The notes beneath the pieces were generated by a model that worked only from the letters and a program-made list of their open reading frames with translations, made no database searches and was not told where the DNA came from. From an archaeon (GTDB lineage: Archaea > Thermoproteota > Nitrososphaeria > Nitrososphaerales > CADDZS01), in NCBI GenBank assembly GCA_029850555.1, contig JARCRS010000031.1, positions 1-64,000 on the forward strand: DNA of 64,000 nucleotides. The letters are read 5' to 3'. Positions 12,250-16,041 of this stretch are shown in pieces (position 1 is the stretch's first letter; every line of letters begins with the position of its first letter). A program made the position numbers and the translations under genes.

Positions 12250-14067
12250 TTGGAAAATAATGTTCAGGAAATCATCTCGAAAACCGAAATTCAAGGCTTG
12301 ACGGATTATCTCGGGCTTGCAAGGAAAATAGACGACAAGGGTCTTTTCGATAAGGCACCTCAGAATAGAAAAATCAAGATTGCGATACTCGAAAGTTTTA
12401 CGCTTGAAGGTGTTCGTGAAGCGCTTCTCATCAAGTGCCTAAAGGAGGGTATCTATCCGCTGATTTACACAGGCAGTTATAATCAGTATAATCAGGAAAT
12501 TCTAGATTCTGCTAGCAACTTGTACGATTTTAAGCCGAACATCGTGATCCTTGATTTAGATACGCGAACCGTTGCGGGTGAAAATTATTTTCAGCTGGAT
12601 TCCGATGGCCAATCAATGCACGGCAAGGCATGGATCAAGTCGACGCTCTCTACAATTCTGGGCCTTGTCCAAAAAATACAAGAGAATTCGAAAGCAAGCA
12701 TCCTCTTGCACAACTTTGAAGTGCCCACATATTCCCCTCTGGGTATCATAGATAACAAGCAAAGTTACAGTTTCAGGCAGTTGGTTCAGGAACTCAATTC
12801 GGAGCTCAGGGATGTTCTTCGAAACGATCCGAGAACATTTTTGTTCGATTTTGAACGCTTCGCATCAAAAATAGGAAAGGATAACTTAATTGATTACAAG
12901 ATGTTCTATCTTGGAGATTTCAGGATTAATCCAAAAGTGATTCCTGATCTCTGCGGTGAATACGTTCCTTATATTCGCGCATTGCTTTCAATGACAAAAA
13001 AGTGTCTGGTTCTTGATCTAGACGGTGTGCTTTGGGGCGGAGTGATCGGAGAAGACGGCCTATCCGGAATCAAACTCGGACCCACCCCGGAAGGTCAGCC
13101 ATTTTTAGATTTGCAAAAATACATCCTTAGTCTCTATAATCGCGGAGTGATACTTGCGATAAATAGTGCGAATAATGTGGACGACGCTATGGAAGTTTTC
13201 CGAAAACATCCTTACATGATGTTGAAGGAGGATCACTTTGCTGCTATGCAGATCAACTGGCAGGACAAAGTCTCGAATCTGAAAGCGATCGCTGAACAAG
13301 TCGAAATAGGAATAGACAGCCTCGTATTTGTTGATGACAATCACGTGAATCGCGAAGTCGTAAAACAAGCGTTGCCGGAAGTTCTGACAATCGATCTTCC
13401 TTCGGATCCATCTCTTTATCCGAAGACAATCATGGATATGCACGTTTTCGACTCTCTTCAGCTTACATCAGAAGACAAAGTTAGAGGAAAGATGTACGCA
13501 GAGCAACGCAAAAGACAAGAATTCCAAAGAGCAGCTGGCGATATCAATGAATATCTAAAGGTCCTCCAAACAGTTGTAACGATAGAAAAAGCAAGCAAGT
13601 TCAACATTCCAAGAATTTCTCAGCTTACCCAAAAGACGAACCAATTCAACGTCACAACCAGAAGATACATGGAGGATGACATTACGAAAATGGCAGGTTC
13701 CGATAATTTCCTAGTCGTATCTGTGAAGGTTGAAGACAAGTTTGGAGACAGTGGCCTCACTGGCCTGGCAATCATCGAGAAAGATCCTCAAAGATGGCGA
13801 ATAGATTCATTCTTGCTGAGCTGTAGGGTTCTTGGTCGAAATGTGGAGGATACTTTGCTTGCCTATATCATTGAGCAGGCGGCTCAGGAGGGTGCACGAG
13901 TCCTTGTTGGTGAGTTCATCCCCACTAAGAAGAATGCGCCAGCAAAGGATTTCTTTGCAGAACATGGCTTTAGCAAGGTTTCTGAGTTGAATGGCTCTGA
14001 AATTTGGGAGTATGACTTGCAGCAAGTGCGCCCGTTTCCGCAATTTGTGAAGGTAGTTGTGAGGTAA
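12250..14067 (+). CDS. FkbH-like HAD-IIIC enzyme, glyceryl/acyl-ACP loading
   Basis: 605 residues, TTG start. The N-terminal part (about 40-240) is the SGNH-like FkbH domain with KIAILESFTLEGV and NIVILDLDTRTV. The HAD domain begins at about 250 with the nucleophile motif D256-L-D258-G-V-L-W followed by GGVIGEDG, and has FVDDNHVNREVV as its distal acidic motif. The C-terminal part (about 490-590) is a GNAT-like fold. Family members move a glyceryl group from 1,3-bisphosphoglycerate onto a carrier protein. An ACP gene starts 10 bases downstream, which strongly supports that reaction here. The final product is unknown. Confidence 0.92.
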   Translation: MENNVQEIISKTEIQGLTDYLGLARKIDDKGLFDKAPQNRKIKIAILESFTLEGVREALLIKCLKEGIYPLIYTGSYNQYNQEILDSASNLYDFKPNIVILDLDTRTVAGENYFQLDSDGQSMHGKAWIKSTLSTILGLVQKIQENSKASILLHNFEVPTYSPLGIIDNKQSYSFRQLVQELNSELRDVLRNDPRTFLFDFERFASKIGKDNLIDYKMFYLGDFRINPKVIPDLCGEYVPYIRALLSMTKKCLVLDLDGVLWGGVIGEDGLSGIKLGPTPEGQPFLDLQKYILSLYNRGVILAINSANNVDDAMEVFRKHPYMMLKEDHFAAMQINWQDKVSNLKAIAEQVEIGIDSLVFVDDNHVNREVVKQALPEVLTIDLPSDPSLYPKTIMDMHVFDSLQLTSEDKVRGKMYAEQRKRQEFQRAAGDINEYLKVLQTVVTIEKASKFNIPRISQLTQKTNQFNVTTRRYMEDDITKMAGSDNFLVVSVKVEDKFGDSGLTGLAIIEKDPQRWRIDSFLLSCRVLGRNVEDTLLAYIIEQAAQEGARVLVGEFIPTKKNAPAKDFFAEHGFSKVSELNGSEIWEYDLQQVRPFPQFVKVVVR

Positions 14068-14775: not shown

Positions 14776-14793
14776 AACCTTAATAAGCATAAG
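14776..14793 (+). promoter_or_regulatory. Putative TATA element for initiator tRNA
   Basis: The stretch CAACCTTAATAAGCATAAG contains an AT-rich TATA-like core (CTTAATAAG) about 37 bases ahead of the first tRNA base, a reasonable distance for a short 5' leader. Assigned by position and composition only. Confidence 0.4.
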
Positions 14794-14822: not shown

Positions 14823-15028
14823 AGCGGGGTGGGGAAGCCAGGTTATCCCGGCGGGCTCATAATTGGGGCATTTCCTAAATTCCTCTGATACGAAACGAAC
14901 AAAAAATAGAGCGCTTGGAAAGCATTGAGATACCCGCAGAGCGGTGGTTCAAAGTAGCAGCAGCTTCACATCTTGGTGAAGGCAAAAACTTTGCTTGGGT
15001 TGCTGTTATGAAAGTCCACCCCCCGCTA
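14823..15028 (+). tRNA. Initiator tRNA-Met (CAT) with two introns
   Basis: Exons fold as an archaeal initiator tRNA: acceptor AGCGGGG/CCCCGCT with the A1-U72 pair, D stem GGGA/TCCC, anticodon stem GCGGG/CCCGC with the three consecutive G-C pairs of initiators, loop CTCATAA and T stem GGTGG/CCACC. Intron 1 is 14862-14931 (70 nt, position 37/38). CTCA pairs with TGAG at 14926-14929, leaving three-base bulges TAA and ATA. Intron 2 is 14954-15014 (61 nt, position 59/60). TTCA pairs with TGAA at 15009-15012, bulges are AAG and AGT, and an inner TAGCAGC/GCTGTTA helix follows. Splicing gives a 75-nt tRNA with T loop TTCAAAT. CCA is not encoded. Confidence 0.93.
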
Positions 15029-15246: not shown

Positions 15247-16041
15247 TTACTCTTGAACTCTAGGAGCGAGATAGAAGTGTATCCTTCCCCCCTTCGAAGC
15301 TTCCCCGAGCTTAAATTCCATTCTAAGAGGCATCTTGCTAGAATATTCGAAGTTTATCATGTCGGAAGCGGAACCTGCAGCTTTAGTTATTTTCAGCAGA
15401 TATTCAATGCTGTAGGTCGCTTTGCTTTCTTCGTTGACATCGAGCTCAGGTATGTCCTGCCCCGCCTTGTCTAAAGTCACGGTTGCCTTTCCGGTGTCTC
15501 CTTTGCCCGAGAAAGTTATAGAGTCCTTCTTCGTCTCGATAGTAATGTGACTTGAGACAACAGAAACGTCATTAAGAACTCGATCAAAAGCCGGCTCAAT
15601 TATAGTGAATTTTGAATTAAAGTTGAGCTTCGGAAGCGGCGTAGTCCCTTGGCTAGATTCAATTAGATGAAGCTCAAACTCTCTTTTCGTTCCCAATTTC
15701 ATGACAAGAGAATCAGACCCCTGTCGCGAAATCTCAAACGTGTCTCTCGAGTCGGCTCTTCGGATAAGTTTAGTAAAATCCTCAACACGAACAGTAAACT
15801 TGTCAGCTTTCGAGATTTCAAATTTTTCAAAGCCTGAACTCGGCCAGAAGAGGTCTACTAGGGCGACGTGGGAAGGATCCATCGCTCTAAAAGTAATGCC
15901 TTCTGAAGTCACGTCGAATGTTGCTTCCTCAACTAAAGTGAGGATAGAGGCAGTGACTGCCTTCCATTCGCTTGGAGTTTGAGTTCTAGCGACGAATCCA
16001 GTCGTCGCAGAAGATTTTGTCGTAGTTTCAGCTGGCATCAT
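15247..16041 (-). CDS. pcn: DNA polymerase sliding clamp PCNA
   Basis: Ring-forming processivity clamp for replication and repair. It is 264 residues, the usual size, with family segments FRAMDPSHVALVDLFWP, the interdomain region KLNFNSKFTIIEPAFDRVL, and the C-terminal PLRMEFKLGE...IHFYLAPRVQE. The N-terminus has a roughly 20-residue Thr/Ala-rich extension before the first strand; a later in-frame start is not needed to keep the fold. It is the last gene of the minus-strand run rpl10e-dph2-csl4-rpoL-tfs-pcn, and only one PCNA gene is in the window. Confidence 0.97.
   Translation of the reverse strand: MMPAETTTKSSATTGFVARTQTPSEWKAVTASILTLVEEATFDVTSEGITFRAMDPSHVALVDLFWPSSGFEKFEISKADKFTVRVEDFTKLIRRADSRDTFEISRQGSDSLVMKLGTKREFELHLIESSQGTTPLPKLNFNSKFTIIEPAFDRVLNDVSVVSSHITIETKKDSITFSGKGDTGKATVTLDKAGQDIPELDVNEESKATYSIEYLLKITKAAGSASDMINFEYSSKMPLRMEFKLGEASKGGRIHFYLAPRVQE

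Follow-up and report, generated by a model that had tools for sequence, protein, structure and literature searches.

The closest described counterpart of the gene reported here is the initiator tRNA gene of Thermofilum pendens, tRNA-iMet(CAU). As described by Chan et al. 2011 (PMC3218864), that gene has a 37/38 intron and, at 59/60, a junction of the bulge-helix-bulge kind. Multi-intron tRNA genes of Pyrobaculum and Thermofilum, both Thermoproteales, are cited in PMC3218864 and PMC8450103. Many non-canonical and multiple tRNA introns have also been reported from Thaumarchaeota (PMC8450103), and multiple non-canonical ones from soil Asgard archaea (PMC11291895). The number of introns per archaeal tRNA gene was given in 2021 as up to three (PMC8450103). 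A splicing endonuclease of the alpha2beta2 type has been assigned to the Thaumarchaeota (PMC4090602).

The window analysed here is a stretch of 64,000 nucleotides, and an earlier note had read positions 14823 to 15028 of it as an initiator tRNA (iMet) gene split by two introns. The exon and intron coordinates given there, including both junctions, are correct to the base. The gene and its surroundings are laid out as follows.

14779..14785, + strand: TATA-like box CTTAATA, 44 nt upstream of the mature tRNA 5' end (TTTAATA in seven relatives)
14823..14861, + strand: exon 1, tRNA positions 1-37, anticodon CAT at 14858-14860, identical in 8 species
14862..14931, + strand: intron 1, 70 nt, site 37/38; core CTCA (14856-14859) pairs with TGAG (14926-14929)
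14932..14953, + strand: exon 2, tRNA positions 38-59, identical in 8 species
14954..15014, + strand: intron 2, 61 nt, site 59/60 in the T loop; core TTCA (14948-14951) pairs with TGAA (15009-15012)
14955-14961 with 15002-15008, + strand: inner helix of intron 2, TAGCAGC/GCTGTTA
15015..15028, + strand: exon 3, tRNA positions 60-73, CCA not encoded, identical in 8 species
15247..16041, - strand: PCNA sliding clamp gene (Pfam PCNA_N and PCNA_C), convergent neighbour of the iMet gene

The three exons joined give a 75-nt initiator tRNA with anticodon CAT and T loop TTCAAAT, which is the canonical product that the earlier note had anticipated. It has the A1:T72 pair and an anticodon stem closed by three G:C pairs, and ARAGORN calls the spliced 75-nt sequence tRNA-Met(CAT). 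Removal of the two inserts thus restores a canonical tRNA, as is expected of bulge-helix-bulge introns. The gene is interrupted at the same two sites as that of T. pendens. The T. pendens gene, however, is permuted at 59/60, with the 3' piece first, whereas the exons of the window gene are collinear, no 3' piece lies upstream of the 5' piece, and 59/60 holds an ordinary intron. The multi-intron tRNAs of the Thermoproteales are alike in having several bulge-helix-bulge introns per tRNA, non-canonical positions included, but they belong to another lineage, the window gene being from soil Thaumarchaeota. The non-canonical tRNA introns reported from Thaumarchaeota and soil Asgard archaea (PMC8450103, PMC11291895) are of the same class as those described here. 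In the literature we came across nothing on the initiator tRNA of this family.

In the unspliced window, neither ARAGORN nor Rfam found a tRNA. A splice-aware alignment to the expected tRNA gave the site a score of 207; elsewhere on both strands of the window the score did not exceed 77, and a shuffled window reached 79. The template was the window gene's own spliced sequence, and independent support comes from the relatives. Because tRNA and RNA-family scans of the kind used here miss the gene, genomes of this sort could wrongly be reported as having no initiator tRNA.

Both junctions of the window gene show a 4-bp core between two 3-nt bulges with 4/4 pairs, and the cores and the inner helix of intron 2 are exactly those that had been claimed. 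Over eight species, 31 of 32 cells are paired in the core of junction 1 and 30 of 32 in that of junction 2, against at most 17 and at most 21, respectively, when the partner is slid by 1-8 bases. In the relatives most of the helix inside intron 2 persists, with changed bases. Single-sequence folding gave the short cores of the window species a pair probability of 0.03-0.07, the energy model not favouring short cores between bulges; among the relatives, core 1 reached 0.77-0.99 in some and core 2 about 0.7 in one.

A search with the 5'-exon pattern returned exactly one copy in eight of the nine genomes of the family, the ninth, without a match, being 67% complete. All eight carry both introns at the same positions, and the claim that the initiator tRNA is interrupted twice is supported. 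Across the eight species none of the 75 exon bases differs; for comparison, the PCNA protein of the other family members is 68-91% identical. The introns are largely unalike in sequence and vary in length from 25 to 73 nt (intron 1) and from 32 to 66 nt (intron 2). In all eight, the iMet gene is preceded at a distance of 39-53 nt by a TTTAATA-type box and has PCNA as its convergent neighbour. With constant exons and freely evolving introns, the family forms a natural series for testing the requirements of the splicing endonuclease.

The host belongs to the family of SubAcS9-71 within the Thaumarchaeota, as judged from its stated same-family kinship with the genomes above. SubAcS9-71, whose tRNA region is that of genome G005, has been placed among the heterotrophic terrestrial Thaumarchaeota of acidic subsoil (PMC10640624), and Gagatemarchaeaceae, also considered as the host family, was therefore rejected. 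Just upstream of the iMet gene, at 12250-14067 on the + strand, the window encodes a 605-aa protein with a match to an FkbH N-terminal domain, near genes for a hexapeptide-repeat protein and a polysaccharide deacetylase.

Two PF01974 (splicing endonuclease) genes are present in the genome (G000), their matched domains lying at C81:24317-24550 and C128:24815-25069. The 190-aa product can be aligned along its length to splicing endonucleases of Crenarchaeota and retains both catalytic residues, His and Lys, and the 208-aa product has Ala at the position of the catalytic His of Methanocaldococcus. Such a pair, one catalytic subunit and one without the His, is the pattern expected for an alpha2beta2 enzyme, into which the two would presumably assemble. 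The question raised by the earlier note, whether a heterotetrameric endonuclease is encoded, can hence be answered for the subunits. A single gene encodes the RtcB ligase (E 7.6e-172). Many other tRNAs of this genome seem to be interrupted as well: ARAGORN called introns in at least nine other tRNA genes, and among the matches to RF00005 that pass the gathering score, a partial tRNA census, only a few are of uninterrupted length.

Taken together, the locus is almost certainly the only initiator tRNA gene of this soil Thaumarchaeon and a working one, with two ordinary introns at 37/38 and 59/60 that are probably spliced by proteins. The conserved exons and cores, the TATA-like box, the PCNA neighbour and the genes for the endonuclease and RtcB argue for a working gene that is spliced by the standard archaeal route. 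From this anatomy, conservation and enzyme content we infer the following course of events. The TATA-like promoter upstream would drive transcription of the precursor, in which each intron would fold back on its exon into a 4-bp helix between two 3-nt bulges. The alpha2beta2 endonuclease would then cut each bulge behind its second base, the exons would be joined by RtcB, and CCA would be added.

If the locus were instead a decayed pseudogene, an intact second initiator tRNA gene would be expected elsewhere in the genome, as the earlier note had pointed out. The assembly, a draft, is 88% complete, and a second copy could be missing from it. No second initiator-like sequence was found in this assembly, however, and each family genome with a match has one copy. 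Relaxed constraint on the exons would also mark a pseudogene, yet these are identical in eight species while the introns diverge, and we regard decay as extremely improbable. It is hardly more probable that only the 37/38 intron is spliced, the T-loop insert being retained in the RNA or removed by another route. Folding energies do make the 59/60 core weak, but this core is found in precisely the splice register in 30 of 32 cells, the length of the insert varies between 32 and 66 nt, and splicing at 59/60 is known in archaea (PMC3218864). Moreover, 49 initiator genes in named genomes, described below, have a T-loop insert, mostly called at 59/60.

We also consider it unlikely, if less so than the two readings above, that the introns have an added role beyond splicing, for instance by acting as a guide RNA or by limiting the supply of initiator tRNA. 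The retention of both introns across the family and the partial conservation of the inner helix in intron 2 could speak for such a role, but little sequence is conserved besides the splice motif and this helix. A box C/D guide RNA within an intron was rejected, box C being absent from both introns and a single CTGA being the only such element. The genome holds no relatives of either intron at E<=1 other than a weak 21-base match to intron 2 (E 0.0065), and there is thus no support for intron transposition or recent copying between tRNA genes. Two ordinary spliced introns in a working gene remain the preferred reading.

The earlier note had held that multiple-intron tRNAs and 59/60 introns are known mainly from Thermoproteales. 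This restriction is not supported, being out of date in the light of the published introns of Thaumarchaeota and soil Asgard archaea and of our own survey. An initiator T-arm pattern split in the T loop was found in 55 stretches of named genomes, and splice-aware parsing turned 49 of these into clean initiator tRNAs (spliced score of at least 150). The parser may shift junctions by a few bases where the sequence permits, as in T loops that differ from TTCAAAT. The genes contain one (n=15), two (n=16), three (n=15), four (n=1) or five (n=2) introns, in a set that is biased since only genes with a T-loop insert could match the search pattern. Their sources are several Thaumarchaeota, Desulfurococcales, Ignisphaera, Bathyarchaeota and Asgard archaea, and also Hadarchaea, Aenigmarchaeota, Micrarchaeota, Woesearchaeota and Altiarchaeales. 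The window gene is therefore real, conserved and of a known kind, and such introns in initiator tRNA genes are common across many archaeal lineages. The same two positions, 37/38 and 59/60, are used in AcS1-27 (L078), FK2.bin78 (L096) and the order-mate G013 (L128), although their introns, of 12-15 and 18-31 nt, are much shorter than those of the window gene.

That 59/60 introns are so widespread in initiator tRNAs is relevant to the origin of permuted tRNA genes. It could be speculated that introns have landed in archaeal initiator tRNA genes repeatedly, perhaps since ancient times, and by preference at 59/60, that the permuted iMet gene of Thermofilum arose from a gene of the linear 37/38 + 59/60 form, and that the intron load on the one tRNA needed for initiation, of up to five apparent introns in Hadarchaea, is regulatory or protective. 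As a joint proposal this is rather doubtful.

Within the order of the window species, the sets of iMet introns vary by family: none; 18/19 (template columns D19/D20); 37/38; 4/5 with 37/38; 37/38 with the variable region and 59/60; 52/53; and combinations of these. In six initiator genes (L057-L061 and L129; genomes G009, G025, G036, G044, G058 and G051) the acceptor stem is interrupted near 3/4-4/5 in addition to a 37/38 intron. Five others (L049-L053; G011, G027, G037, G045 and G052) have three introns, at 37/38, in the variable region and in the T loop, the middle junction not being cleanly placed. The sole initiator gene of the order-mate G010 (L064) has four, at 4/5, 37/38, 52/53 and 59/60, with splice cores of 4/4, 3/4, 4/4 and 4/4 pairs.

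Five apparent introns are found in the sole initiator genes of Candidatus Hadarchaeum yellowstonense YNP_45 (L106) and Hadesarchaea MAG-18 (L107), at 4/5 or 10/11, 30/31, 37/38, 45/46 and in the T loop. Both give a clean spliced tRNA, with cores that are imperfect or ambiguous as parsed at the first junction of L106 and at the T-loop junctions of both. The four introns of G010 and the five of the Hadarchaea apparently exceed the maximum of three stated in PMC8450103. Two further initiator genes with three introns each (L136 and L137; genome G023, contig C257) stand in tandem, 324 bases apart, and are identical in their parsed exons and introns, which suggests a recent duplication or an assembly repeat.
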